Assembly: GCA_900316305.1 (NCBI GenBank)
Contig: ONCM01000023.1
Location: 1-41,600 of the forward strand
Source of the DNA: an uncultured Bacteroidales bacterium
Lineage (GTDB): Bacteria; Bacteroidota; Bacteroidia; Bacteroidales; WCHB1-69
Direction of reading: 5' to 3'
DNA length: 41,600 nt
Shown here: positions 7,252-39,976 of the stretch, in pieces
How the letters are laid out: each line of letters begins with the position of its first letter
Numbering within the stretch: position 1 is the first letter of the stretch
Notes under the pieces: generated by a model
Database searches by the model: none
Told to the model about the DNA's origin: nothing
The model's input: only the letters and a program-made list of their open reading frames with translations
Translations under genes and position numbers: made by a program

Positions 7252-8562
7252 ATGATTAGCCAAAATGCCATTAACTATACTTTCCAACAACTTCTTAAAG
7301 TCGCATTTCCCGGCTTCGATACCTCTTTTTTTAATATAGAAGTCTTGGAATCAGGGTATTGCATACATTTTGGTCAAGGGGAGATTACGATGCCTCGTAT
7401 GAATGATGCGCAGTGGCAAGACTTTTTGAAAGGGGAAATGAAGCCTTGTTTTGTCAATAATGTGGCAGAAACAGGACAGATTCCTTTGTTTGGTCCGGAG
7501 GATAATCCTTTTGATATTATTATGCCCTCCTTCGCGTTTTTGTCGCGATATGAGGAGTTCTTCTCGGATGAGCCGGATGCTCACGGGCGTTTTCCTTATC
7601 AAAATAGCCTTGTTCAGAAGTACAATTTAGTGGAAATTCCGATTGTGGATGAGTATGCAATGATTTTGCGCAGGAATTTGTGTGCTTGTTTCCCAGAGAT
7701 GTTCACGCCATCACCTCGCAAGCCACGTGTTGTGCCCACTCATGACATCGATCTTCTGTACCGTTTCAAGAGCCGTTTTCAGGCGTTGAAGTCCATTTTC
7801 GGACGGGATATGCTGATAAATCGGGATATGGCGATGGTTAAACAATCGTGGCAAGAATATCGCAATTGGAAGTCAGATAATTTCGAGGATCCTTATATTC
7901 AGGCTATTATGGAATTCGCCACGCGGGAGCATGCCGCTGGCCTCGAACCGGTCTTCTTTTTCAAAGCCTCGTATGACGGGGAGGACGATGCCACCTACGA
8001 TATTCGTGATGTACGCTTGCAAAGGATATGGGAGCATCTTGACAATAAGCAAGGAATTGTAGGATTGCACGGCAGTTATAGCAGTGCAGAAGAGGAAGGG
8101 CTTTTGCGTGAAGAGAAAGCACGACTGGAGGAACTTTTGGCCCGTTTTGGAAAGAAGGTCACTTGTTTCCGCCAGCACTACCTCCGTGCCCGTTTCTATA
8201 TCGATGAATATTTCCTGCATTCGCTGGATTTGTGGCAAGATGCCGGCATCACCGACGACTACACCCTCGGGTTCGCGGAACGGTGCGGCTTCCGTTGCGG
8301 CACCTGCCACCCGTACCCGCTTTACGACGTGCGCCACGACAAAGTCACGGACATCATCGAACACCCGCTCATCGTCATGGACGGCACGCTGTTCGACTAC
8401 ATGAAACTCTCCGTGGATGAGGCCAAAGACCTGGCTCTGAAACTGAAACAACGCTGCCTCGACGTCGAAGGCGATTTCGTATTTCTCTGGCACAACCACA
8501 CGACGACGCGGGAGTTTGAACGATATTACGAGGAGGTGTATATGTCGTTAATTCAAATGTAG
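7252..8562 (+). CDS. polysaccharide deacetylase-like protein (CE4-type fold, DUF7033-like N-terminus)
   Basis: 436 residues. The N-terminal third (about 1-155) matches the uncharacterised domain that precedes deacetylase-like domains in Bacteroidetes. From PTHDIDLLYRF (162-172) the sequence follows the carbohydrate esterase 4 plan: the Asp-Asp-type metal motif appears as HDID, then GLHGSYSSAEE, TCFRQHYLRARF and WHNHTTT near the end. Family members remove acetyl groups from surface glycans, and its placement between glycosyltransferases suggests capsule or LPS assembly. The substrate is unknown and activity is not proven. The stop TAG lies inside the first ATGTAGA unit of the following array. 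mnmA ends 21 bp upstream. Confidence 0.8.
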   Translation: MISQNAINYTFQQLLKVAFPGFDTSFFNIEVLESGYCIHFGQGEITMPRMNDAQWQDFLKGEMKPCFVNNVAETGQIPLFGPEDNPFDIIMPSFAFLSRYEEFFSDEPDAHGRFPYQNSLVQKYNLVEIPIVDEYAMILRRNLCACFPEMFTPSPRKPRVVPTHDIDLLYRFKSRFQALKSIFGRDMLINRDMAMVKQSWQEYRNWKSDNFEDPYIQAIMEFATREHAAGLEPVFFFKASYDGEDDATYDIRDVRLQRIWEHLDNKQGIVGLHGSYSSAEEEGLLREEKARLEELLARFGKKVTCFRQHYLRARFYIDEYFLHSLDLWQDAGITDDYTLGFAERCGFRCGTCHPYPLYDVRHDKVTDIIEHPLIVMDGTLFDYMKLSVDEAKDLALKLKQRCLDVEGDFVFLWHNHTTTREFERYYEEVYMSLIQM

Positions 8563-8636
8563 AATGTAGAATGTAGAATGAAGAATGAAGAATGTAGAAT
8601 TATGAATTATGAATTATGAATTATGAATTATGAATG
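8557..8636. repeat. heptamer array (ATGTAGA, AGAATGA, ATGAATT units)
   Basis: Tandem 7-bp units begin inside the last two codons of the deacetylase gene: its final ATG TAG is itself the first ATGTAGA unit. The units then change to AGAATGA and finally to about four ATGAATT copies. Confidence 0.88.
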
Positions 8637-8652
8637 ACTTGTGACTATGAAC

Positions 8653-8751
8653 CCTAAGCTACTAGACTACTAAACTACTAAACTTCTAAGCTTCTAAGCT
8701 CCTAAACTTCTAAGCTTCTAAGCTTTTAACCGTTAAACCATAAACCTTAAA
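8653..8751. repeat. octamer array (CTACTAAA/CTTCTAAG) grading into TTAAACC heptamers
   Basis: Eight-bp units CTACTAAA, CTTCTAAG and CTCCTAAA run from about 8670 to 8730. TTAACCG, TTAAACC and ATAAACC heptamers follow and end just before the TTG start at 8754. Each unit holds TAA or TAG. Confidence 0.82.
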
Positions 8752-9700: not shown

Positions 9701-9718
9701 AACACCCTATCTCGTTAC

Positions 9719-9797
9719 CCTTAAACTTTAAACCTTAAACCTTAAACCTTAAACCTTAAACCTTAAACCTTAAACCTTAAACCTTAAACCTTAAACG
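9719..9797. repeat. (TTAAACC)n heptamer array, nine perfect units
   Basis: Nine exact 7-bp repeats centred on CC at 9733, 9740 and so on to 9789, with degenerate edges. It lies between two convergent genes. TAA occurs on both strands. It is equivalent to the TTTAAGG telomere-like motif but is internal to the chromosome. Confidence 0.95.
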
Positions 9798-9808
9798 GTT
9801 AACCATTA

Positions 9809-10957: not shown

Positions 10958-12051
10958 TATTTCTGGGAGTAACGGAACAGGATCTCTTTCTCTTCTTTGG
11001 AGAGGGCATCGTAGCCCTTCTTCGATATTTTGTCGAGTATTTCGTCAATACGCTGTTTCTCGGCCTGTTTGCGGGCGTTGAAATCCTCATCGCTTATCGG
11101 ACGGCCGCTTTCCTGGGAGACGTAGTATTTCGTTGCACCGCTCTTCTCCCGTTTGCTGAACGGGTTCCATCGTTGTCCCGAATCACGGCTGTCTCTTCGG
11201 TCGCGGTAATCTTGGAAGTAGGCTTGGTTGTGCTTGTGGAGGTCATCGTGATGCCAGAGGAACAGCAGCAGCACGCCGAAAATCATACCGCCCAGATGCG
11301 CAAAGTGCGCCACACCGTCGGCGGTGCCCAGCACGCCGTATGCCAATTCGATGATACCGAAAATCAGCACGAACCACTTGGCCTTGATGGGGAACAGGAA
11401 GTAGATGTAAATCAGGTTGTTCGGGAACAGCCAGCCGAAGGCCAGCAGTACGCCGTAGATGGCACCCGAAGCGCCGATCAGCAGGAAGCTGTTCAGGTAG
11501 GCGTTTTGCAGCGTGATGGTGGCCGGCACCAAATCGCTCAGTGAATCCGGATTGCGTTGGAGTACCCCGAGGTTGTTCTGCAAGGCGCTCTGCAGCTCGG
11601 GAACTTTGTTGTTTTCAACTAGATAGCGGTAACTGTCGAGAGACGGATCCGTCAGGAACTGGTTGAAGAGGGCCATGGAGGGACCGATTTGGAAGTAGGT
11701 GATGATAAAGTGGGTGAGGGCTGCGCCGATACCGGTGATCAGGTAGTAGATGAGGAATTTCTTGCTGCCCCATTCGTTCTCTACAGCCGCTCCGAACATC
11801 CAGAGTGCGAACATGTTAAAGAAAAGGTGGCCGAAGTTTCCGTGCATGAACATATAGGTGATGAACTGCCACCAATGGAAGTCCGGTGCGCTGTAATAGT
11901 GCAGCCCCAGCCATCGGTTCAGGTCGCAGATGTTCGCGTGTGCGAAGACGAAGGTGGCAAAAAACAGTAAGGTGTTGATTATAAGTAGGTTCTTGACTGC
12001 TTTCGGCAGAATATTGAACCCACCCATGCCAATTTGTTGTCCGTTGTTCAT
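10957..12051 (-). CDS. rhomboid family intramembrane serine protease
   Basis: 364 residues. It has the rhomboid landmarks HGNFGHLFFNMFALWMFG (His and Asn in helix 2), GASGAIYG with the catalytic Ser195 and VAHFAHLGGMIFG with the catalytic His252. A hydrophilic stretch of about 60 residues (125-185) interrupts the helices between EWGSKKFLIYYLITG and the serine helix, a loop longer than in GlpG. The tail after 265 is charged and cytoplasmic (RDSGQRWNPFSKRE). Its substrate is unknown. A minus-strand -7 box at 12206-12213 is the nearest promoter, which would give a long leader crossing heptamer arrays. The TAA stop overlaps the ATG of the EEP gene. Confidence 0.93.
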   Translation of the reverse strand: MNNGQQIGMGGFNILPKAVKNLLIINTLLFFATFVFAHANICDLNRWLGLHYYSAPDFHWWQFITYMFMHGNFGHLFFNMFALWMFGAAVENEWGSKKFLIYYLITGIGAALTHFIITYFQIGPSMALFNQFLTDPSLDSYRYLVENNKVPELQSALQNNLGVLQRNPDSLSDLVPATITLQNAYLNSFLLIGASGAIYGVLLAFGWLFPNNLIYIYFLFPIKAKWFVLIFGIIELAYGVLGTADGVAHFAHLGGMIFGVLLLFLWHHDDLHKHNQAYFQDYRDRRDSRDSGQRWNPFSKREKSGATKYYVSQESGRPISDEDFNARKQAEKQRIDEILDKISKKGYDALSKEEKEILFRYSQK

Positions 12052-12052
12052 T

Positions 12053-12121
12053 AAGGTTTAGGGTTTAGGGTTTAAGGTTTAGAGTTTAAGGTTTAGAGTT
12101 TAAGGTTTATGGCTTAAGATT
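12053..12121. repeat. TTTAGGG/TTTAAGG heptamer array next to the rhomboid start
   Basis: Imperfect 7-bp units TTTAGGG, TTTAAGG and TTTAGAG begin 2 bp upstream of the rhomboid ATG. They are the complement of the TTAAACC type. All carry TAG or TAA. Confidence 0.85.
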
Positions 12122-12159
12122 GTTGGTTTAGCGTGGAAAATTGTCGTGCAACAAAGCTT

Positions 12160-12190: not shown

Positions 12191-12205
12191 TATTAAAAAC
12201 GGCTG

Positions 12206-12213
12206 CAAAAATA
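12206..12213 (-). promoter_or_regulatory. -7 box, likely rhomboid-EEP promoter
   Basis: Reads TATTTTTG on the minus strand, followed by CAGCCG. It is 155 bp from the rhomboid ATG, so the leader would include both arrays. Confidence 0.5.
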
Positions 12214-12225
12214 CGCAAAAAATCT

Positions 12226-12233
12226 TACTTTTG
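12226..12233 (+). promoter_or_regulatory. -7 box for aroA
   Basis: Reads TACTTTTG. It ends only 16 bp before the GTG start, so the mRNA leader should be about ten nucleotides or less. Confidence 0.6.
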
Positions 12234-12249
12234 CCCCTAAAAAATAGCG

Positions 12250-13461
12250 GTGCTGTATTGTATTCAACTTCCTGATAATAAGAGTATTCGTATTCGCAAG
12301 ATGATATGGTCTTGGGTATGGAGAGGGGAGGTGTCGTCCATTTCGCCCGGCGATTGCCGCGATATTGCGGTCACGCATCGGGCGGTGGGGATCGTTGCGG
12401 GGAAATCGTCCGTTCATCCCGTGGCGATCGATGTGGAGGATTGCGGTGCGGCCTATCGTTTCCTGATGCCGGTCCTCGCCGCCACGCCGGGGGTGTGGTT
12501 GTTGATGGGCACGGAACGCCTGTTGCAACGACCGATCCTGCCGTTGGCGGAGGTGTTGCGCGGCATCGGGGCGGAGATTGAACGGGTGGAGGAGGGTTGG
12601 TTGATACGCGGAAAATCGTTTGCCCGACCTGTAGAGACGCGCTGCAGCACGTCTCTACAACGTGGGGAAATCGGTGGATTATCATTATCCATCGATGCGT
12701 CCCAATCCTCGCAAATGGCCTCCGCGTTGGTGTTGGCTGCCCCGTTGTTGGGTCTCAAAACCTTGCATCTCACCATGCCGGACATCCCATCGTTACCCTA
12801 TTTGCAGATGACGCTCGCGCTCACCCGCGACTGGCCGGTGGAGATTCCCGGTGTTACAGTGCCCGACACCCCGATTGGGGCGGTCGGCGATTGGAGTGCG
12901 GCGCTTTTCTGGTTCGCCTACGCCTGTTTGCATCCGGAACACGAATATCTGTTGTCACCGTTGTCGCTGGAATCTATCCAAGGGGATGCGGTTATCGCGC
13001 AATGGTTCAATATGTTGGGCGTTTCCGTGTGTAGAGACGTGGTGCACAGCGTCTCTACGACCCCGTATATCGAAATAAAAGCAAAACCGTTGGAAACAAT
13101 GCCTCATTTGGTCTTGGATGTTCGCGACAACCTCGACACCGTGCCCGTTATGGCCGCCTTGGCAGCACTTTTGCCCGCCGACATCACTTTCCAGAATGTA
13201 CGGAATCTGCAATACAAGGAATCCGACCGTCTCCACGCCTTGACGGAACAGTTGATGCCTTACGCAACAATAGAATTGTCTGAAAATGAAATGCGTGTGA
13301 TTGGAAAAGGTCAACCTTTGGTAGCGGGGGCAGGATTCGATACTAAACACGATCACCGGTTGGCGATGGCGTTTTTGTTGTTTCCGGATGCGGTGTTGAA
13401 TGATACGGATTGCCTGATAAAATCCTATCCTAATCTTCTGGAACAGTTGTCGGGCGAATGA
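12250..13461 (+). CDS. aroA: 3-phosphoshikimate 1-carboxyvinyltransferase (EPSP synthase) with two palindrome-encoded insertions
   Basis: Joins shikimate-3-phosphate and PEP in the aromatic amino acid pathway. 403 residues. Landmarks are LPDNKSIRIRK (Lys11, Ser12 and Arg16 correspond to the usual K-S-x-x-N-R), DCGAAYRFLMPVLAA, ASQSSQMASALVLAAP, DVRDNLDTVPVMAAL (catalytic Asp region), QYKESDR and DHRLAMAFLL. The first motif is divergent. The GTG start is forced: a stop lies four codons upstream in frame, and the first ATG (12301) would delete the Lys-Ser-Arg motif. Palindromes at 12631-12658 and 13031-13058 encode VETRCSTSLQ and CRDVVHSVST within predicted loops. A third, degenerate palindrome provides the GE-stop end. 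Confidence 0.9.
   Translation: MLYCIQLPDNKSIRIRKMIWSWVWRGEVSSISPGDCRDIAVTHRAVGIVAGKSSVHPVAIDVEDCGAAYRFLMPVLAATPGVWLLMGTERLLQRPILPLAEVLRGIGAEIERVEEGWLIRGKSFARPVETRCSTSLQRGEIGGLSLSIDASQSSQMASALVLAAPLLGLKTLHLTMPDIPSLPYLQMTLALTRDWPVEIPGVTVPDTPIGAVGDWSAALFWFAYACLHPEHEYLLSPLSLESIQGDAVIAQWFNMLGVSVCRDVVHSVSTTPYIEIKAKPLETMPHLVLDVRDNLDTVPVMAALAALLPADITFQNVRNLQYKESDRLHALTEQLMPYATIELSENEMRVIGKGQPLVAGAGFDTKHDHRLAMAFLLFPDAVLNDTDCLIKSYPNLLEQLSGE
12631..12658. repeat. 28-bp palindrome, subtype B, inside aroA
   Basis: GTAGAGACG at one end and CGTCTCTAC at the other around CGCTGCAGCA. It starts exactly at codon position 1 (GTA GAG ACG) and is translated VETRCSTSL plus the first base of Q. Confidence 0.93.
13031..13058. 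repeat. 28-bp palindrome, subtype B, second copy inside aroA
   Basis: GTAGAGACG and CGTCTCTAC around TGGTGCACAG. It starts at codon position 2, so it is read as GT AGA GAC and so on, a different frame from the first copy and also open. Confidence 0.93.
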
Positions 13462-13475
13462 TTATTCGTCCTCCC
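13448..13475. repeat. degenerate subtype A palindrome at the aroA stop
   Basis: The core GGGCGAATGATTATTCG is identical to the intact subtype A copies, but both outer arms are changed (TGTC and TCCTCCC). It supplies GGC GAA TGA, the last two codons and the stop of aroA. Confidence 0.75.
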
Positions 13476-13493
13476 AACATTTGCCTATTGCCT

Positions 13494-13521
13494 GTAGAGA
13501 CGTGGTGCACCGCGTCTCTAC
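13494..13521. repeat. 28-bp palindrome, subtype B, at the BatA-type gene stop
   Basis: GTAGAGACG and CGTCTCTAC around TGGTGCACCG. On the minus strand its first four bases G-TAG supply the stop codon of the gene at 13518-15566. It lies in the convergent junction with aroA. Confidence 0.93.
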
Positions 13522-15566
13522 TCGTTCAACGCCGGTTTTCCCCAGAACCGCAGCACGGCGATTTCGGCGAGGAAGCAGAGCAATGAGAGGATGACGAACC
13601 ACGGCCACAGCGGTTTGCCGTTCAGGCGGTCGCTGACGCTCTTGGCGATGTTTTTCGTGTCTGCACTGATGACGGCGATGTTGTCGCCGAGTTCATCGGC
13701 CGTTTTCTTCAGGTCACTTTCACTGTAGCAGGCGAGGTCGGATTCGCGGCGACTCAAGTTGAAGGCCAGCGTTCCCAAGACCTGTCCGCCCCGCATGATG
13801 TCGTACCAGTCGCTGGTGTGCGCCTGGTTGTGGAAATAGAGGGCAGTTTCGTTGCCCAGTCGGCGCTGTTCGGGGATGAACTCCTCGTTGCCCTTGCGTG
13901 CGCGCAGCACTACAGCTTCGTCGGAACGGTCGCTGGGCAGTATCACGCGTTGCATTTGATCCAGACCGATGACGTTGTAGAGTTTCTGCTGCGCCGCGTT
14001 CATGATGCCGATGTTGTGCAGCGGCACGAAGAAGAGGGCGTGACGGTGAGCATTACCGAAGTCGTCGTTGAGGGCCACGGCGGAGAGAATGACCTTGCCG
14101 TTGCCGGCAGGGTAGGAGATCAGCATCGGGGAGTTATCCTCCAACGCCATGATGGTCTCGCTGCCGTTGGCACCACCCGCGATGGCGAAATGCTGCAGCG
14201 TCTGCGGCATGTCAATGCGCGAATCCTGCGTCTCCAGCGCCCCTTTGAAGTAGATGCTCTCGGTGTTCAATCGTTGGCATTTCAGCGTTTTCTTGACCAG
14301 ATTGCCGTAGTGGCCCGCCTGTAAGCTCTGCAGCAGGGCGTTGACGCTCTTGTCGGCTTTTTCCGTTGGGAACACCAACAGTGTGCCGCCGGCGTTCACG
14401 AACTTGGTGAGCTCGTCAGCCAGACCGGAGGAGATGCTCGGCACTTCGTTAAGAACGACTACCGCGCTCTGTCTCAGGGCACTGTAGTTGATCTGCTGGT
14501 AACCCATGGGCTGGTAAGTGAATACGGAATCCTTGCCGTAGAGTGCGGTAAGGAACCGGTTGGGATCTTTGTCGTAGATGACCGTGACGACGCTGTTGTC
14601 GGACACTTCGTAGGTGAAATAGAGCTCGTCGTCAAAGGTGATGGGCGCATCTTCGATGCTCACCTTGCCGCAGTTGGTGCCGCTTTCGTCAATGCGGTAG
14701 GTCAGGTGGCAGTCCACGTAACCGCCCGCCGCGATGTCAATGGCGGCGATGGCCTTCTGCTTGTCGTTAACGTGTAGTTTCACAGGTACTTTCTGCACCT
14801 CTTCGCTGCCGTAGTTGTGCACGCGGGCGATGAGAGTGACCGTATTGTCGAGCTTGAAGATGGGCGTTAAGAACCAACAGCTATCGATAGCCACGTTGTT
14901 GAGCTGTTCGGCTGGCGCAGGAATCAGCCCGATATGGGTGGAGGAGTCGTTCCGCAGCACGGACAAGTCGTAGTTGTTTTTCTGAAAATCAGAGATATAG
15001 TAGTGAATAACGTTCTCTTTTTGAGAGCCTTGGAGCGTGTGGTTCTCGAAGGTGCGGATCTCTTTGAAGGAGTGGCTGTTGGGCGACACGGCGATGCGGT
15101 CCAACAGCTCCAGCATCTGGTCTTTGTTGAGAATATGGGACTCCTCGCCGGTGAAATCTTGCGTGGTGAGCACAAAGTCGTCAGAAAAACCGAAGGATTG
15201 CACGATGTTCTTGGCGGCATCCACGGCATCGAAGAGCCGCGAGCCGTTCTTGCTGTCGGCCTCCATGGAGTAGGAGTTGTCCACAAAGATGGAAATTACG
15301 TTGCCTTTTTTTTCTGCACTATTGCTGCCGCGCAAGAAGGGCTGGGCGGCGGCAAGTACGAGGCAGGCAATACCCAAGACTCTCAGCATCAATACGATGA
15401 GTTGCTGGACTTGCGAGGCTCGTTTGGTTTTCTTTTGGATATCCTCCAACATCTGCACGTTGGAGAAATAGGCTGTCTTGTATCTTCTGAAATTGAAAAG
15501 ATGTATGATGATCGGCACCAGAATGGCGACGAGACCTATAAGCATCAAGGGGTTAGTGAATGACAT
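13518..15566 (-). CDS. BatA-type membrane protein (vWA-like, double-TM N-terminus)
   Basis: 682 residues. The N-terminus MSFTNPLMLIGLVAILVPII followed by HLFNFRRYKTAYFSNVQ is the conserved BatA/Bacteroidetes double-transmembrane domain; a second helix is LMLRVLGIACLVLAAAQPFL. A vWA-like segment follows, with ISIFVDNSYSMEAD as a DxSxS metal site. A long periplasmic beta-rich part comes next, and a last helix WPWFVILSLLCFLAEIAVLRF. Such proteins occur in aerotolerance (Bat) operons, but no MoxR or other Bat gene is adjacent here. Its role is unknown. A -7 box lies 21 bp upstream of the ATG. The stop codon is inside a 28-bp palindrome. Confidence 0.85.
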   Translation of the reverse strand: MSFTNPLMLIGLVAILVPIIIHLFNFRRYKTAYFSNVQMLEDIQKKTKRASQVQQLIVLMLRVLGIACLVLAAAQPFLRGSNSAEKKGNVISIFVDNSYSMEADSKNGSRLFDAVDAAKNIVQSFGFSDDFVLTTQDFTGEESHILNKDQMLELLDRIAVSPNSHSFKEIRTFENHTLQGSQKENVIHYYISDFQKNNYDLSVLRNDSSTHIGLIPAPAEQLNNVAIDSCWFLTPIFKLDNTVTLIARVHNYGSEEVQKVPVKLHVNDKQKAIAAIDIAAGGYVDCHLTYRIDESGTNCGKVSIEDAPITFDDELYFTYEVSDNSVVTVIYDKDPNRFLTALYGKDSVFTYQPMGYQQINYSALRQSAVVVLNEVPSISSGLADELTKFVNAGGTLLVFPTEKADKSVNALLQSLQAGHYGNLVKKTLKCQRLNTESIYFKGALETQDSRIDMPQTLQHFAIAGGANGSETIMALEDNSPMLISYPAGNGKVILSAVALNDDFGNAHRHALFFVPLHNIGIMNAAQQKLYNVIGLDQMQRVILPSDRSDEAVVLRARKGNEEFIPEQRRLGNETALYFHNQAHTSDWYDIMRGGQVLGTLAFNLSRRESDLACYSESDLKKTADELGDNIAVISADTKNIAKSVSDRLNGKPLWPWFVILSLLCFLAEIAVLRFWGKPALNE

Positions 15567-21774: not shown

Positions 21775-21802
21775 GTAGAGACAAGGCGCGCCGCGTCTCT
21801 AC
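21775..21802. repeat. 28-bp palindrome, subtype B, at a lipoprotein stop
   Basis: GTAGAGAC and GTCTCTAC around AAGGCGCGCCGC, 28 bp. On the minus strand G-TAG provides the stop codon of the gene at 21799-22605. Confidence 0.92.
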
Positions 21803-22605
21803 CATTCGTCCCCTTCTTCAATTTCCAGCAGCACGATGTTCCCTGGATGGTAAATGAATTTCACAATGGTCGAGACGCTGGTGAGCTCGCCCTCCTCGCA
21901 ACCGCAGATGACGAGCGTATATTGGGTGCCGTCCTCCATGTTGTTCTCATGCAATAAGTCCACTTCGCTTGGGCCTATATAATAGTAGTAATCCAAGAAT
22001 CCGTATTCCTGATACATTCCCACGACCGAGTACAGATAGCTAGTAGCTGCACCGTATTGGTAGTAAATCATGTCGGATTCTTCATACTGCCAAACGTATC
22101 TGAGGTTGTCGTCGGAAGGCGTGATGCTGATTACGTCCCCTTCGGAACTGATGTCAAAATGCAGGTCGTGTGCGGGTACTGGCTTGGTGTGAAAAGATGT
22201 GCTAATCGGCTCTCCGATGAGCTCATGCGTCTTGGGGTTGATTTGGAAGACGATTAGCTTGTAATCCATGTCGTCATACAGCGTCCCTATGCTGAATTGT
22301 CTGCTTCCACGATAGAAAAAAACATCCAGGAAGCTGGCACCCTCAAAATTGGCATAGGCGTCTTCCATCAGCTCTATTTCTTCTTTGCAGATTTCTGCTA
22401 ACGAGTTGTCGTAACTTCCATCGTTTGCATTAATAATGATGTAGCCATAGTAGGCTTGCGGATTTGTCGGGGCCACGGTGAACCGTACACGGGTGCCCGT
22501 CACCGTTTCCACTTTCGCTTTAAGTTCAGTGGGGAGTAGTTCTTCTTTCTGGCAGCCCGCAAACAGCAACAGACTTAGGACAAGTATTGATAATATCCGT
22601 TTCAT
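21799..22605 (-). CDS. hypothetical lipoprotein, last gene of a three-gene surface operon
   Basis: 268 residues. The signal MKRILSILVLSLLLFAGC ends in a lipobox (FAGC). The remainder is acidic and Tyr-rich with predicted beta strands (ETVTGTRVRFTVAP, YYGYIIINAND), resembling fibronectin-III-like surface lipoproteins. I recognise no enzyme motif. It starts 17 bp after the lipase-like gene, and the codirectional beta-barrel gene precedes that, so all three are probably transcribed from 24547. The stop codon TAG is the palindrome's second to fourth base, so the end of this protein may have been defined by the repeat. Confidence 0.75.
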   Translation of the reverse strand: MKRILSILVLSLLLFAGCQKEELLPTELKAKVETVTGTRVRFTVAPTNPQAYYGYIIINANDGSYDNSLAEICKEEIELMEDAYANFEGASFLDVFFYRGSRQFSIGTLYDDMDYKLIVFQINPKTHELIGEPISTSFHTKPVPAHDLHFDISSEGDVISITPSDDNLRYVWQYEESDMIYYQYGAATSYLYSVVGMYQEYGFLDYYYYIGPSEVDLLHENNMEDGTQYTLVICGCEEGELTSVSTIVKFIYHPGNIVLLEIEEGDEW

Positions 22606-30444: not shown

Positions 30445-31800
30445 ATGAATATCAATAAGAACGACATAGAATTTGCTTCGGCGGAGGAGATAAAATCCTT
30501 TCAGGAGGCGAAAATGCGCGATGCGCTGGCCTATCTGCAGCAGAACTCCCGCTACTACCAGCGCATGTTCGAACGCTACCGCATCAACGTGGAGAAGATT
30601 CGCACTATTGAGGATCTCGTGAACATCCCGTTCACCGAGAAAAAGGATCTGCAGCTCTTCAACGAGGACTTCCTCTGCGTGCCCAAAGAGAAGGTGATCG
30701 ATTACATCACCACCAGCGGAACGCTCAGCGACCCGGTGACCTTCTGTTGTACCGAAAAGGACCTGCAACGCTTGGCGTACAACGAGAAGAAAAGTTTTGA
30801 ATGTGCTGGCTTACAGCCGGGTAACATCCTTCAGCTGATGGTCACTCTCGACAAGCGGTTCATGGCGGGACTGGCCTATTTCCTCGGTTTGCGTGAGCTC
30901 GGCGCCTCTGTCATCCGCGTGGGCAATGGTATCCCCGAACTGCAGTGGGACACCATCCAGCGCATCCGTCCCGACAGCATCATGTGCGTGCCATCGTTTA
31001 TTCCACGACTGATCCAATATGCTGAGGATCATGGTATTGACTATCAGAATTCCAGTGTGCGGAAGATTATCGGAATTGGCGAAAGTCTGCGCAACCAGGA
31101 CTTCTCGCTCAACCTCTTGGGCGAGCAGATCAAGTCGAAGTGGGACGTGGAGCTGTATGCCACTTACTCCTCGACTGAGATGGGAGCGACGTTCAGTGAG
31201 TGCGAGTACGGCGTGGGCGGTCACGTGCATCCGGAACTCATCATCGTGGAAATTATCGGCGAGGACAACTTGCCGGTGGCCGACGGCGAGACTGGCGAGG
31301 TGGTGGTGACCACCCTCGGTGTGGAGGGTATGCCGCTGTTGCGCTTCCGCACGGGCGATATGTGCGCGAAAATTGCCGAACAATGTCCCTGTGGCAGAAA
31401 CAGTTATCGTCTTACCCCGTTGGTGGGCCGCAAGAACAACATGATCAAACTGAAGGGCACCACGCTCTATCCGCCGGCACTGATGGATGTGCTCAACAAC
31501 ACGCCCTTCGTGCAGAATTACGTCATTTACGTGCAGGATTCTCAGCAGGGCACCGACGAGGTGGTCGTGAAGGTGGGACTGAACGCAGAAGTTGTGGAGG
31601 AGAACGCTCGTTTCAAGGATCATCCTGAGGAGATCGTCAACGAGCTGAAGAATCGTTTCCGTGCCCACGTGCGGGTGGCCCCGGTGGTGCAGATTGCATC
31701 CGTGGAGGAGGTTCAGCGCGTCAATTTCCCGCCAAGCGCGAGGAAGCCGGTGAAGTTTGTGGACTTGAGAGGAATGAAGAATGAAGAATGTAGAATGTAG
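30445..31800 (+). CDS. phenylacetate-CoA ligase family AMP-forming enzyme
   Basis: 451 residues. Adenylate-forming motifs are YITTSGTLSDPVTF (ATP-binding P-loop), YSSTEMGATFSECE (A5), PLLRFRTGDM (A7) and VGRKNNMIKLKGTTLYPPAL (hinge). The CPCGR motif is typical of the PaaK group. The family activates aryl or fatty carboxylates as CoA thioesters. With an aromatic ammonia-lyase, a reductase and a ketosynthase downstream, the substrate may be a cinnamate- or coumarate-like acid, which is inference. The last nine residues (GMKNEECRM) are encoded by AGAATGA/AGAATGT heptamers, an extension produced by the array. Confidence 0.88.
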   Translation: MNINKNDIEFASAEEIKSFQEAKMRDALAYLQQNSRYYQRMFERYRINVEKIRTIEDLVNIPFTEKKDLQLFNEDFLCVPKEKVIDYITTSGTLSDPVTFCCTEKDLQRLAYNEKKSFECAGLQPGNILQLMVTLDKRFMAGLAYFLGLRELGASVIRVGNGIPELQWDTIQRIRPDSIMCVPSFIPRLIQYAEDHGIDYQNSSVRKIIGIGESLRNQDFSLNLLGEQIKSKWDVELYATYSSTEMGATFSECEYGVGGHVHPELIIVEIIGEDNLPVADGETGEVVVTTLGVEGMPLLRFRTGDMCAKIAEQCPCGRNSYRLTPLVGRKNNMIKLKGTTLYPPALMDVLNNTPFVQNYVIYVQDSQQGTDEVVVKVGLNAEVVEENARFKDHPEEIVNELKNRFRAHVRVAPVVQIASVEEVQRVNFPPSARKPVKFVDLRGMKNEECRM

Positions 31801-31825
31801 AATGAAGAATGAAGAATGTAGAATT
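31772..31825. repeat. AGAATGA/AGAATGT heptamer array overlapping the ligase C-terminus
   Basis: About seven 7-bp units (GAATGAA, GAATGTA). The first four are translated as the ligase C-terminal tail and the TAG stop comes from a GAATGTAG unit. Confidence 0.9.
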
Positions 31826-31895
31826 ATGAATTATGAATTATGAATTATGAATTATGAATTATGAATTATGAATTATGAATTATGAATTATGAATT
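31826..31895. repeat. ten perfect ATGAATT units ending at a start codon
   Basis: Ten exact ATGAATT copies at 31826, 31833 and so on to 31889, followed by ATGAATA at 31896, the start of the FISUMP gene. Each ATG opens a five-codon mini-ORF that stops at TGA overlapping the ATG two units on. Confidence 0.95.
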
Positions 31896-33641
<1,746 letters not shown>

Positions 33642-36185: not shown

Positions 36186-36280
36186 TAACGAAAGGCCCCC
36201 CATATAATAAACTTCTTCCTTGAAAGCCCTGTAGGGGCGTCCTATGTTAACCTAGGGTGAACGGAGTGAGCCCTAGGACG
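36186..36280. repeat. multi-hairpin structured repeat, copy 2 (shorter)
   Basis: Shares CATATAATAAAC and TTCTTCCTTGA with copy 1, then a GCCC-TGTAG-GGGC hairpin (36226-36238) and a perfect CCTAGGG / CCCTAGG hairpin (36251-36277). The middle hairpin of copy 1 is missing. Confidence 0.68.
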
Positions 36281-36300
36281 TATGACGATGAAAAACGATG

Positions 36301-36410
36301 AATGGACGACGAATGGACGACGAATGGACGACGAATGGACGACGAATGGACGATGAATGGACGATGAATGGACGACGAATGGACGATGAATGGACGATGA
36401 ATGGACGATG
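36301..36410. repeat. ten 11-bp units before the ketosynthase start
   Basis: Units AATGGACGACG or AATGGACGATG at exact 11-bp spacing, 36301 to 36400. Each unit holds an ATG and several hold TGA-ATG. The array ends 10 bp before the start codon at 36421. Confidence 0.95.
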
Positions 36411-36420
36411 AATATATTAT

Positions 36421-37647
36421 ATGATGAAAGATAAACGTGTAGTAATCACTGGAATGGGAATATGGTCGTGTATTGGCACGACCAAGGACGAGGTGGCCGA
36501 ATCGTTGCGGATGGGCCGTGTGGGTCTCGGCAACAATCCCGACAGGCTCGCCTACGGATACCAGTCGGACCTGACGGGCATCGTGCCCGAACCTGAGTTG
36601 AAACCGTTGTTGCACAGACGGTTGCGTGCAGGTCTCTCCCAGGAGGCAGCCTACGCCTTCATGGCTTCCAAGGAGGCGTTCGAGCAGGCCGGTATGGATG
36701 AGGAGTACCTCCTCAGTCACGAGGTGGGCGTTATCTTCGGCAATGACTCGTCATCGAAACCGGTGATTGAGACTGACCGGATGTTGGTGCAGCGTCCCGA
36801 CACCGAGCTGTTGGGCTCCGGACTCATCTTCCAGTCCATGAACTCCACGGTGAACATGAACCTGAGCAGCATCTTCCACCTGCGCGGCATCAACTTCACG
36901 GTGAGTGCGGCGTGCGCCAGTGGCAGCCACTCGGTGGGTCTCGGCTACCTGCTCATCAAGCAGGGACTGCAGGATGTGGTGCTGTGCGGCGGTGCCCAAG
37001 AGGTCAACCAGTTTGCGATGGCCTCTTTCGACGCGCTCGGTGCTTTCTCGAAAAGAGTGGGTGAGCCGTTGCGTGCGGCGCGTCCCTTTGACCGCGACCG
37101 TGACGGGCTTGTGCCCAGCGGCGGTGCGGCGGCACTGGTGTTGGAGGACTACGACCATGCGGTGCAGCGTGGCGCGACCATCCTCGCGGAGGTCGCCGGC
37201 TACGGCTTTTCCTCCAACGGCGGCGGAATCTCCCAACCCTCCGACGACGGCAGCGTCACCGCGATGATGCGGGCCATGGAGATGGCGGGCGTCACCCCGG
37301 CGGACATCGACTACGTGAACGCACACGCTACAGGTACGCCCCAAGGCGACACTTTCGAAGCCATTGCTATCGACCGCCTTTTCCACGGTCAACGCGCCCT
37401 TATCAGCTCTACCAAGGGCATGACCGGCCACGAGTGCTGGATGGCCGGAGCGAGCGAACTGGTCTATTGCGCTCTCATGATGCAGCACGGTTTCGTGGCT
37501 CCCAACGTAAACTTTGAGAACCCTGATGAGGCCTCCGCTCCGCTGAACATCGCCACCAAAACTGTGGAGATGCCATTGAACACGGTGCTGAGCAACAGCT
37601 TTGGATTTGGAGGAACGAACTCGGCGGTTGTGCTGAGGAAATTATGA
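36421..37647 (+). CDS. beta-ketoacyl-ACP synthase (aryl-polyene/flexirubin-like FabB/FabF)
   Basis: 408 residues. The catalytic triad is Cys165 in VSAACASGSHSVG, His302 in NAHATGTPQGD and His337 in STKGMTGHECWMAG, with Lys332. The C-terminal FGFGGTNSAVVLRKL is conserved. GHECWMAGASE differs from the GHxLGAAG of housekeeping FabF and resembles ketosynthases of aryl-polyene-type clusters, from my memory of the family. It extends acyl-ACP chains by two carbons. It is third in a + strand series after the lyase and reductase. The start may be 36421 or 36424. A mini-ORF from the upstream array ends in TGA overlapping this ATG. The stop TGA is inside the following array. Confidence 0.9.
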   Translation: MMKDKRVVITGMGIWSCIGTTKDEVAESLRMGRVGLGNNPDRLAYGYQSDLTGIVPEPELKPLLHRRLRAGLSQEAAYAFMASKEAFEQAGMDEEYLLSHEVGVIFGNDSSSKPVIETDRMLVQRPDTELLGSGLIFQSMNSTVNMNLSSIFHLRGINFTVSAACASGSHSVGLGYLLIKQGLQDVVLCGGAQEVNQFAMASFDALGAFSKRVGEPLRAARPFDRDRDGLVPSGGAAALVLEDYDHAVQRGATILAEVAGYGFSSNGGGISQPSDDGSVTAMMRAMEMAGVTPADIDYVNAHATGTPQGDTFEAIAIDRLFHGQRALISSTKGMTGHECWMAGASELVYCALMMQHGFVAPNVNFENPDEASAPLNIATKTVEMPLNTVLSNSFGFGGTNSAVVLRKL

Positions 37648-37708
37648 ATGCAGAATGCAGAATGTAGAATGTAGAATGTAGAATGTAGAATGTAGAATGT
37701 AGAATGAG
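37641..37708. repeat. AGAATGT heptamer array at the ketosynthase stop
   Basis: About eight 7-bp units (GAATGCA x2, GAATGTA x6) begin with the ATGA that contains the stop codon of the ketosynthase. Confidence 0.9.
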
Positions 37709-37726
37709 GGACGTGGTTCCCAAAAA

Positions 37727-37751
37727 ACTGCTAACTACTAACTGCTAACTA
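37727..37751. repeat. CTAACTG/CTAACTA heptamer array at the ccsA stop
   Basis: On the minus strand it reads TAGTTAGCAGTTAG and so on, starting exactly at the TAG stop of ccsA. Same family as 35204-35237, in the opposite orientation. Confidence 0.85.
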
Positions 37752-39863
37752 AGCGTAGCTGTGCATTCCGCCCAGCAACATATTCACCCCGAAGTAGGTA
37801 ATCAGCACGCTGAGGAACGCCAAAATGCAGTAGAGGTGGAAGAAGAGCGGCTTCTGGAACGATTTCCAGAGGGTGCTGTGGAGCGGGGCGATGTAAACCA
37901 GCAGGGTGATGAGCGCCCAGACCTCTTTCGGATCCCATGACCAGTAATTGCCCCACGAGATGTTGGCCCACACCGCGCCGATGAAGATGCCTGCGGCGAG
38001 CAGCGCGACGGCAGGGTAAAGCATGATCATACTGATGTCGCGGAGCCGCTCCAAAAATTGCGTGTTGGTCGGTTGTGTCACGCGCACGATCAGCGCGCTG
38101 ATACCGTTCAGCATGATGAAGAAGAGAAGGGCGTAGGCAATCATGATGACGGTGACGTGCAGGCTGAGCAGCGGCGACGAGAGCACCGGCATCAGATGGG
38201 TGATCGGGGGATTGGACCCGCCCATCATTTGCACCAACAACACGATGCCGGTCATCAACAGGCCGGCGGGCAACGCCATTTCGTATTTTTGCATCATTAT
38301 CAACGTGATTATGCAGATGTTCAGCGCCAACAGGTTCATGGAGTCGAAGCTGCCGGCCATGGGCACGTGGCCGCCGGCGATCCAGCGCAGAATGAAGACC
38401 AGCGCCAGGAACACGCACAGCAGCGACATCCACACCACAGCAACCGTTCTGACGGGCTTGTAGAGCTTGCGACCCTTTCCAAGACAGACCAGCGCAGCCG
38501 CAAAGCATATTAGTCCCAAGGTGATGGTCACCATTGCTAACCAACGACCGACCGAAAGACGGTTGTAAAGCCGCTCGGCGCGGTATTGTACTTTGGGCTG
38601 CACCTGTCCTAGGGAGTATTTCTCTTGGTAGATTTTTGTTTTCTCAAAAAGTTCGTTCAGCGCGGCAAAATCCCCTAACACCACGTATTCTTTGCACAAA
38701 CTCATCTGTTTGCGGATAAAGAGATATTCGTCATCTGGGATTTCCAAGGGGAGTTGGTCGTTTTGCGAATACCACGTCACCTGCTGCGAACTGTCGGCGT
38801 GGGGATAGATTTTCAGCAGTTGGCTGTTTAGCACCATGTTGATAATTTGTCTTTTCTCTTCGGCCTCGCGTTGTTTGCCCCGTTTTAGGTCGCGTTCGAT
38901 TCTGGGTATCGGCTCGTTCTGCCAATCGCTGGTGTAGAAGAGCCAGCCGCTGAAGACCTGTTCGGGCGTGTAACCGCGATAATGGGCATTGCCGTATAGC
39001 TTGGTGGTGAAGTCCTTGGCGAGGGTCTGCAGCGGACAGACACGGCCCTTGTACATCACGTACATCTGGCCCATTTTGTCGGCACTCTCTTTGGACAGCG
39101 TGCGCGGCTTGTTGGCCGCCGATGCGGGTAAGGATGCGCCAACCGTCAGAAAGAGGGCGAACAGTACAGCCGCTGGTGCCGACGCTTTTCGCAGCAGTGT
39201 CCGGAACTGTCCGTTCTTCTCGAAAAACATCCCGATCAAGGCGATGAACAGCAGGATATAGCCCGTGTAGGTCACCCCGACACCCCAGGGGTCGTGGGCC
39301 ACCGAAAGCACGGAGTTGCCTTCCTCGTCGTAGTCGCTCTGGTAGAAGCGGTAGTGACGGTATTTCAGGATGTTGTTCATGGAGATCTTGGCGTCGGTGG
39401 TCGTGCCGCCGTCGTGGATCTGGAGGTAGCTCACGAAATCCATCGGCGTGTGGGTGCCCGGGTAGGTTTCCACTTCGAAACGGTCGAGGGTCAGGGAGAA
39501 CGGAAGGGTTTCCGTGCGGCTGCTCCCGTGTTTCTCGATGGTGAACTGGTTGGTGGCGACACTGGGTTTCAGTGTCATCTCGCCGTGCTGTCCGGTGGTC
39601 ATGGTCAGCAGCGCGCCGAGCAGGATCACCAGAATAGAGGTGTGGAGGGCGCACACCACGGGTCGCTTCCACGATTTCCGTGTAATCATCATGACGATAA
39701 TGCCGAGGGCGAGTAGTGCCCACAGCGCGACGAACCACCACGAGCCATAGACGTGGCTCAGCGCATAGTCGTTGCCGTGTCGCATTTCCACGACGGTGCC
39801 CGCAGCCATGGAGGCGATGAGGGCGAGGATTAGGAGGGAGAGGGGATGTCGGAGATGTTTCAT
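37749..39863 (-). CDS. ccsA: fused ResB/CcsA-type cytochrome c assembly protein (System II)
   Basis: 704 residues from the ATG at 39863; residues upstream in frame are only translated array (FFILHSS). The N-terminal half is ResB/CcsB-like: helices near 10-28, 41-62 and 70-95, and a periplasmic segment with HYRFYQSDYDEEG and VGVTYTGYILLFIALIGMFF. The C-terminal half is CcsA, with helices and the haem-handling WWD motif WGNYWSWDPKEVWAL, plus conserved periplasmic histidines (LHSTLWKS, LLSLHVTVIMIAY). It exports haem and attaches it to CxxCH motifs. The upstream gene on the same strand encodes a di-haem protein, its plausible client. Confidence 0.93.
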   Translation of the reverse strand: MKHLRHPLSLLILALIASMAAGTVVEMRHGNDYALSHVYGSWWFVALWALLALGIIVMMITRKSWKRPVVCALHTSILVILLGALLTMTTGQHGEMTLKPSVATNQFTIEKHGSSRTETLPFSLTLDRFEVETYPGTHTPMDFVSYLQIHDGGTTTDAKISMNNILKYRHYRFYQSDYDEEGNSVLSVAHDPWGVGVTYTGYILLFIALIGMFFEKNGQFRTLLRKASAPAAVLFALFLTVGASLPASAANKPRTLSKESADKMGQMYVMYKGRVCPLQTLAKDFTTKLYGNAHYRGYTPEQVFSGWLFYTSDWQNEPIPRIERDLKRGKQREAEEKRQIINMVLNSQLLKIYPHADSSQQVTWYSQNDQLPLEIPDDEYLFIRKQMSLCKEYVVLGDFAALNELFEKTKIYQEKYSLGQVQPKVQYRAERLYNRLSVGRWLAMVTITLGLICFAAALVCLGKGRKLYKPVRTVAVVWMSLLCVFLALVFILRWIAGGHVPMAGSFDSMNLLALNICIITLIMMQKYEMALPAGLLMTGIVLLVQMMGGSNPPITHLMPVLSSPLLSLHVTVIMIAYALLFFIMLNGISALIVRVTQPTNTQFLERLRDISMIMLYPAVALLAAGIFIGAVWANISWGNYWSWDPKEVWALITLLVYIAPLHSTLWKSFQKPLFFHLYCILAFLSVLITYFGVNMLLGGMHSYA

Positions 39864-39864
39864 C

Positions 39865-39925
39865 GAATTATGAATTATGAATGAAGAATGAAGAATGAAG
39901 AATGAAGAATGAAGAATGAAGAAAA
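39865..39925. repeat. ATGAATT then AGAATGA heptamer array upstream of ccsA
   Basis: Two ATGAATT-type units followed by about seven AGAATGA units, starting 2 bp upstream of the ccsA ATG and lying in its leader. Confidence 0.88.
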
Positions 39926-39932
39926 CAGGTGG

Positions 39933-39940
39933 CAAAGATA
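39933..39940 (-). promoter_or_regulatory. -7 box for ccsA
   Basis: Reads TATCTTTG on the minus strand, 70 bp before the ATG. The leader would contain the whole heptamer array. Confidence 0.6.
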
Positions 39941-39948
39941 TTAAAATT

Positions 39949-39976
39949 GTAGAGACGCAATGCATTGCGTCTCTAC
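39949..39976. repeat. 28-bp palindrome, subtype B, intergenic (perfect)
   Basis: GTAGAGACGCAATG and its exact inverted complement CATTGCGTCTCTAC, a perfect 14-bp dyad. It lies between the di-haem gene stop and the ccsA promoter. Confidence 0.94.

Follow-up and report, generated by a model that had tools for sequence, protein, structure and literature searches.

In the window, by which we mean the whole 41,600-nucleotide stretch of an uncultured Bacteroidales contig analysed here, two 28-bp palindromes lie within the open reading frame of aroA, and orthologues from the same genus carry different palindromes in register at the same places. We propose that REP-like mobile palindromes entered loop codons of aroA and that the occupants of these addresses were afterwards replaced in register by other palindromes, which we regard as the probable history of these sites.

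The aroA gene (12250-13461, plus strand) starts with GTG and encodes an EPSP synthase of 403 amino acids. The assignment is based on the open reading frame and its translation, a Pfam EPSP_synthase match (PF00275, residues 56-400, E value 3.2e-30) and a fold match of the AroA model to E. coli EPSPS, with a TM score of approximately 0.78 by query length; other solved EPSP synthases were also matched. The protein keeps K11, S12, R16, Q155, D296, K323, E324, R327, H369, R370 and K391, residues which we take to be catalytic and which are invariant or at least 90% conserved in a 49-row alignment. A preliminary description of the sequence had located two palindromes in this gene, and its coordinates are confirmed. 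Site 1 (12631-12658, plus strand), a member of the GTAGAGAC family with the core CGCTGCAGCA, is in phase 0 and reads VETRCSTSLQ from codon position 1 (residues 128-137); site 2 (13031-13058, plus strand), of the same family with the core TGGTGCACAG, is in phase 1 and reads CRDVVHSVST from codon position 2 (residues 261-270). As described, the 403-residue frame stays open through both, and together with the conserved domains this open frame suggests that the palindromes are translated. Their palindromic nature is borne out by the 174 genomic copies of the family pattern (see below), but their symmetry is imperfect, the core being mismatched at one of five pairs in the first copy and at two of five in the second. 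A decayed palindrome of the GTAGGGGC family, recognised from the 3' ends of aroA genes and a repeat search, spans the aroA stop codon (13449-13475, plus strand; TGA at 13459-13461). This third element, the genome-wide scale of the family and the differences between species at fixed sites all go beyond the preliminary description. As RNA the two 28-mers fold well (-16.3 and -15.0 kcal/mol), which is usual for palindromes; a structured RNA was considered and rejected, with no Rfam match at the gathering threshold in 12200-13600.

In an AlphaFold2 model of AroA built with 49 sequences (mean pLDDT 93), site 1 (residues 128-138) is the sole stretch below 50 pLDDT and is located between strands 116-121 and 144-148, while the site 2 block (residues 261-270, mean pLDDT 75) continues into the turn joining strands 258-264 and 273-278. 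In the model both segments are thus found in loops, where they had been expected, and look like hairpin loops.

The pattern GTAGAGAC-N12-GTCTCTAC occurs in 174 copies in the 3.28-Mb genome, against 0 for a reversed-pattern control. It is present in all 24 genus genomes of a first sample (4 to 241 copies), and a stricter pattern with 9-bp arms is present in 38 of the 40 genus genomes of a second sample (up to 237 copies); many of the related uncultured Bacteroidales records come from the rumen and other herbivore guts. The exact-arm palindrome was also seen in 109 viral-contig stretches of IMG/VR, so the palindrome probably occurs outside this genus, and in a few genomes from other families of the order. 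Among 87 distinct exact-arm copies from several genomes, the outermost core pair is mismatched in 34, mostly with C opposite A; many copies would therefore be oriented, with a G-U pair in one RNA strand. Compensatory changes in the arms were tried as an argument and dropped, symmetric changes being found in 2 of 12 two-mismatch GTAGAGAC copies, which is too few.

The arms read VET....SLQ in phase 0 and xRD....VST in phase 1, whereas phase 2 gives TAG: GTAG contributes this stop codon and so closes the third frame, and the opposite strand obeys the identical frame rule because the palindrome is symmetric. Phase-2 palindromes end two minus-strand genes of the window. The gene at 13518-15566 stops at the TAG within the minus-strand GTAG of the palindrome at 13494-13521 (core TGGTGCACCG). 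The gene at 21799-22605 likewise stops at the TAG within the minus-strand GTAG of the palindrome at 21775-21802, in which one arm base is altered; among the 8 rows examined for this gene only the window's own row has a palindrome at the stop. The palindrome at 39949-39976 (core CAATGCATTG) has no ORF through it by the read-through criteria given below, and a repeat search detected a GTAGGGGC-family palindrome (GTAGGGGCGAATGATTATTCGCCCCTAC) at 1880-1907 and another, identical in sequence, at 32241-32268; none of these five was assigned a strand. The window also holds runs of 7-bp units (AATTATG, AATGAAG, AATGTAG, CCTTAAA / TTTAAGG) at 8528-8660, 31752-31915, 37633-37740, 39845-39960, 9704-9808 and 12051-12134, and an 11-base tandem repeat (ACGACGAATGG / ACGATGAATGG) at 36273-36437.

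A copy was counted as read through when an ORF had at least 60 codons before the palindrome and at least 10 after it. Of the 174 copies, 50 were located individually and 49 of these were examined; 15 of the 49 are read through, compared to a mean of 38.25 (range 32-46, 200 draws) for random positions in the same loci; the palindromes avoid genes without sparing them. These 15 copies are distributed over 12 ORFs, a single sigma-factor-like protein accounting for three and AroA for two, and at least two of the 15 are doubtful, namely the one at 21775 and the one in locus L141, where the palindrome is probably ahead of the gene. In L141 (1186-1600) the palindrome directly follows a fragment, which we take to resemble the N-terminus of a RAYT, and precedes an apparent signal-peptide protein. 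Pfam matches extend across the palindrome twice in AroA and also in a 4Fe-4S protein (whose Fer4_8 match is itself split around the palindrome), a GH78 rhamnosidase, a secretion-tail protein and a thiamine pyrophosphokinase; in an alpha-2-macroglobulin-like protein (A2M) the palindrome lies just past the matched domain.

AroA matches were obtained in 37 genus genomes, and 18 rows, the window and its 17 closest relatives, were aligned. With a palindrome counted as recognisable at up to 7 of 18 arm mismatches and scored absent beyond that, site 1 is occupied in 9/18 rows, site 2 in 8/18 and an additional site 0, around residue 51, in 4/18; the L037 row consists of the C-terminal part only, owing to a frameshift, and is scored empty at sites 0 and 1 though its DNA has an intact site 1 copy. 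The AroA frameshift of this draft genome (G014, L037 / L075) is either a sequencing error or the mark of a pseudogene. One other AroA, L064, carries a fourth palindrome site, and 8 more distant AroA sequences of the genus have no intact palindrome copy. Both segments of the window's AroA are missing from orthologues with clean flanks, the outcome that the preliminary description had named as support, and judging from this alignment the aroA palindromes are insertions. The length of the insertion differs among the sites. All 10 rows empty at site 2 are of one length, and 4 of the 8 carriers are longer by exactly 24 nt; the gain is +48 to +72 nt at site 1, over seven empty rows of one length, and +27 to +45 nt at site 0, varying with the empty relative used. 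A rule of 24-nt insertion (28 minus GTAG) was rejected, since it holds at site 2 alone and sites 1 and 0 deviate; the earlier expectation that each event also gained or lost flanking bases holds only in part, with a single exact figure in half of the site 2 carriers and a range at site 1. Site 1 carriers have similar extra flanking residues and therefore probably descend from one ancestral insertion. In L021 and L022 the arms have decayed and the aroA frame is still open.

The nine carriers of site 1 have nine core strings, which reduce to about six types when near-identical and reverse-complement strings are pooled; examples are CGCTGCAGCA, CACGGCCGTG, CGCCATGGCA, CAAGATTTTG and ATCTGCACAT. 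Divergence among them (n=9) is 0.049 in the arms, 0.636 in the core and 0.338 in the 12+12 flanking bases. Orthologues were compared for five genes, picked for carrying coding palindromes. For A2M, 18 of the 30 loci that had been fetched were used, and exact arms are in register in 9/18, with four cores; one locus has a single arm mismatch, one a decayed palindrome and seven none, and divergence (n=11) is 0.071 in the arms, 0.407 in the core and 0.306 in the flanks. For the 4Fe-4S gene, where 24 loci out of 30 were used, palindromes of two families begin at the same codon, GTAGAGAC in 2/24 loci, with two cores, and GTAGGGGC in 9/24 (1 intact, 8 decayed); 12 loci have none and one a partial copy. 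To the right of the two families the length differs, by 12 nt in most comparisons. The aroA stop is likewise occupied by both families, by GTAGAGAC palindromes in 2/18 rows (cores ATGTGCACAT and CAAAATTTTG) and by GTAGGGGC palindromes in 4/18 (1 intact and 3 decayed, including that of the window), with neither in 12/18. A palindrome in the same register, intact or decayed, gives TAG in 5 of the 17 other rows; in the window the decayed palindrome has lost one base, and TGA ends the gene. A three-gene tree (1105 columns, 16 genomes), with which single-gene trees conflict in places, places G012 together with G013/G017 (support 0.94) and G003 together with G002/G007 (0.997), and therefore the families at the aroA stop differ within clades (G017 vs G012, G003 vs G007).

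For the rhamnosidase loop 25 loci out of 30 were used, and 7/25 have palindromes or their remains there. Two of these are exact; six can be aligned, and these six rows were selected by their left-arm pattern. Other repeats occupy this loop in at least 8/25 loci, namely a TCACGAAGTGACGGAGGGG inverted repeat in 3, AATTCA-type heptamers in 4 and an AAATCTC run in 1. The TCACGAAGTGACGGAGGGG inverted repeat is translated in L409, L410 and L415, in the loop where G000 has its palindrome, and the AATTCA-type units translated there in relatives are similar to the 7-bp runs of the window. Exact palindromes were found in 4/30 loci of the thiamine pyrophosphokinase gene, with four cores and in phase 0 or 1, and the occupied positions could not be aligned in a single register. 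Among these loci (L159-L166) the G000 gene has one exact and two decayed palindromes in a cluster, and a deletion seems to have removed most of two palindromes in G007 (L163); the L162 core TTGCGCGCCG resembles a mixture of TTGCGCGCAA and CGGCGCGCCG, which may point to an exchange inside a palindrome. Locally identical DNA was also observed in species with otherwise well diverged proteins (L231/L233, L021/L219). The A2M genes of G000 and G021 are identical around the site, their proteins being 77% identical, and aroA site 2 is identical between G007 and G054. Such stretches likely derive from interspecies recombination.

When AroA sites 0, 1 and 2, A2M and the rhamnosidase were pooled (the 4Fe-4S and pyrophosphokinase sites are outside the pool), the mean pairwise difference per column was 0.136 in arms, 0.538 in cores and 0.389 in flanks. 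By column permutation cores exceed flanks (P = 1.5e-4) and flanks exceed arms (P = 5e-5) in the pool, where the permuted columns share a phylogeny and hence are non-independent. Singly, flanks exceed arms at all five sites (P ≤ 0.046), a comparison in which the absence threshold (more than 7/18 arm mismatches) and the left-arm choice of the rhamnosidase rows bias the arms toward conservation. The excess of core over flank is significant singly at site 1 (P = 2e-4) and site 0 (P = 0.03) and not at site 2 (P = 0.21, with L219 dropped, its copy being identical to that of L021), A2M (P = 0.085) or the rhamnosidase (P = 0.26).

We infer that the palindromes differ at orthologous sites by replacement of the occupant. 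According to this proposal 28-bp palindromes would have entered loop codons of aroA in ancestors of one sub-clade within the uncultured Bacteroidales genus. Ever since, they would have been part of the reading frame, two of the three frames being open and the third making the palindrome terminate the gene. An occupied site would persist as an address, where the resident palindrome is repeatedly swapped in register for another 28-mer, either with the same arms and a new core or of the other family; the GTAGAGAC and GTAGGGGC families share little past GTAG...CTAC. Replacement would preserve the reading frame because the members are 28 bp long. Alternatively, the resident may decay or be lost. 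Several of the observations weigh against replacement: core exceeds flank significantly at only two of the five sites taken singly, the scoring favours conserved arms, DNA has passed between species by likely recombination, other repeats occupy the rhamnosidase loop, lengths differ to the right of the 4Fe-4S palindromes, and the pyrophosphokinase positions share no single register.

The main rival of this proposal is independent insertion into permissive loops, whereby all short repeats would insert everywhere, selection would spare tolerant loops and gene ends, and each species would have acquired its palindromes on its own. The depletion of palindromes in genes (15/49 read through against a random mean of 38.25) is what it predicts, and the rhamnosidase loop, with palindromes or remains in 7/25 loci and other repeats in at least 8/25, looks like such a place. 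Independent insertion at the same nucleotide is, however, not expected, and the left edge is in register at six places (site 1, mostly site 2, A2M, the 4Fe-4S gene, the rhamnosidase and the aroA stop); moreover, the similar extra flanking residues of the site 1 carriers point to a single ancestral insertion. We consider this rival rather unlikely, though to be taken seriously. Coincidence, that is, ordinary AroA residues that chance to look palindromic, has next to no probability, because the segments are missing from orthologues and the genome has 174 copies of the pattern against 0 in the control. Homologous residues in palindrome-free AroA orthologues, the finding that would speak for coincidence, were looked for and not found.

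Two further explanations are inheritance and recombination. Had one ancestral palindrome been inherited at each site, with selection preserving its arms as a hairpin or a site for protein binding and its core free to drift, strong conservation of the arms would follow, and some double arm changes indeed retain pairing (e.g. GTTG...CAAC). We find this account very improbable: L021 and L022 persist with decayed arms and an open aroA frame, the cores fall largely into discrete recurring types instead of a drift cloud, and drift does not explain the switch of a whole family. Homologous recombination between species, carrying gene patches with different palindromes, would agree with the local identity at A2M (G000/G021) and at aroA site 2 (G007/G054) and with the conflict among gene trees; but flank divergence at site 1 is 34% and arm divergence 5%, so no tract travelled with its flanks, and the 4Fe-4S genes of G000 and G013 have similar left flanks and different cores. 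As the source of the differing palindromes, recombination is highly doubtful.

Replacement in register, the reading that we prefer, may be brought about either by an enzyme acting at GTAG or by template switching through the arms. In the former case a Y1-type enzyme would cut at GTAG and rejoin the ends with another hairpin; in the latter, replication would switch strands via the arms, which is hard for GTAGGGGC versus GTAGAGAC because what their arms share is GTAGnGnC. The same core types are found again elsewhere, both at further sites and in further genomes, as copying would predict. Y1_Tnp matches number 4 in the window's genome and are found in 36 of 40 genus genomes, and across these 40 genomes palindromes tend to be more numerous where Y1_Tnp matches are (Spearman 0.58), but also where the genome is larger (0.66). 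Thirty Y1_Tnp loci, a part of all matches, contain 7 palindromes, the two families taken together, over 94 kb, with no locus flanked on both sides; the GTAGAGAC-family background density in G000 is about 0.053 per kb. Cutting by a RAYT finds no support here, because the Y1_Tnp loci read are at about background palindrome density and because cleavage by the E. coli RAYT is reported to be lost when the palindrome is made stronger (PMC3733652). A more general formulation, towards which we lean slightly, is that of a cassette system, in which a GTAG address, genic or intergenic, would be repeatedly re-occupied by whichever 28-bp palindrome, of any family, is active in the lineage.

The likeness to the Rickettsia palindromic elements (RPEs) raised in the preliminary description concerns the outcome and would not by itself make the present palindromes members. 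RPEs are in-frame inserts in genes for conserved proteins of several related species (Ogata et al. 2000, 2002; via PMC10969869, PMC2229807), and the in-frame coding palindromes found here are likewise in conserved genes and missing from some orthologues. RPEs are approximately 150 bp long (PMC10969869), whereas the present palindromes have 28 bp, encode 10 residues and belong to Bacteroidales, with cores and families that vary at a single address. REPs tagged with GTAG (Di Nocera et al. 2013, PMC3733652) are 20-40 bp long with a terminal GTAG, occur in many copies and are in some cases intragenic, similar to our 28-bp palindromes with GTAG at the 5' end and 174 copies. The same paper reports GTAG REPs that supply TAG stops and describes two Xanthomonas species with different REPs at approximately the same recB site, which is the nearest precedent for an address. 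It also describes GTAG as unpaired and at one end, whereas here GTAG pairs with CTAC and begins both strands, and RAYT genes as flanked by GTAG or other inverted repeats, whereas here no such palindrome flanking above background was seen. In the orthoswitch of Pseudomonas and Stenotrophomonas (PMC3686654) a lineage exchanges one class of REP for another, the REPs that flank the RAYT gene changing and then spreading; here the differences concern individual copies within coding genes. The preliminary description knew of no coding palindromes in Bacteroidales, and our literature search, which covered few subscription journals, found no report of these or of palindrome replacement within a gene; a search with the motif letters gave no title on bacterial repeats among the matches listed. 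Protein-coding palindromes as such are known, from Rickettsia and several REP-bearing bacteria, with Wolbachia named in a reference title; the part that looks new is their probable turnover at a fixed address.

These results extend protein-coding palindromes to a genus of gut Bacteroidales with 40 searchable genomes, in which insertion, tolerance, decay and replacement can be counted over many species within one gene. Should the occupants of a fixed address indeed be replaced, the palindromes would be a one-step source of new loop peptides that leaves the frame intact, and the movement of REP-like palindromes could be tested at coding sites, where its steps are readable. If the cassette system is true as well, the loop peptide of an essential enzyme would be rewritten in a single step with no frameshift, and the GTAG of the incoming copy would preserve stop codons.
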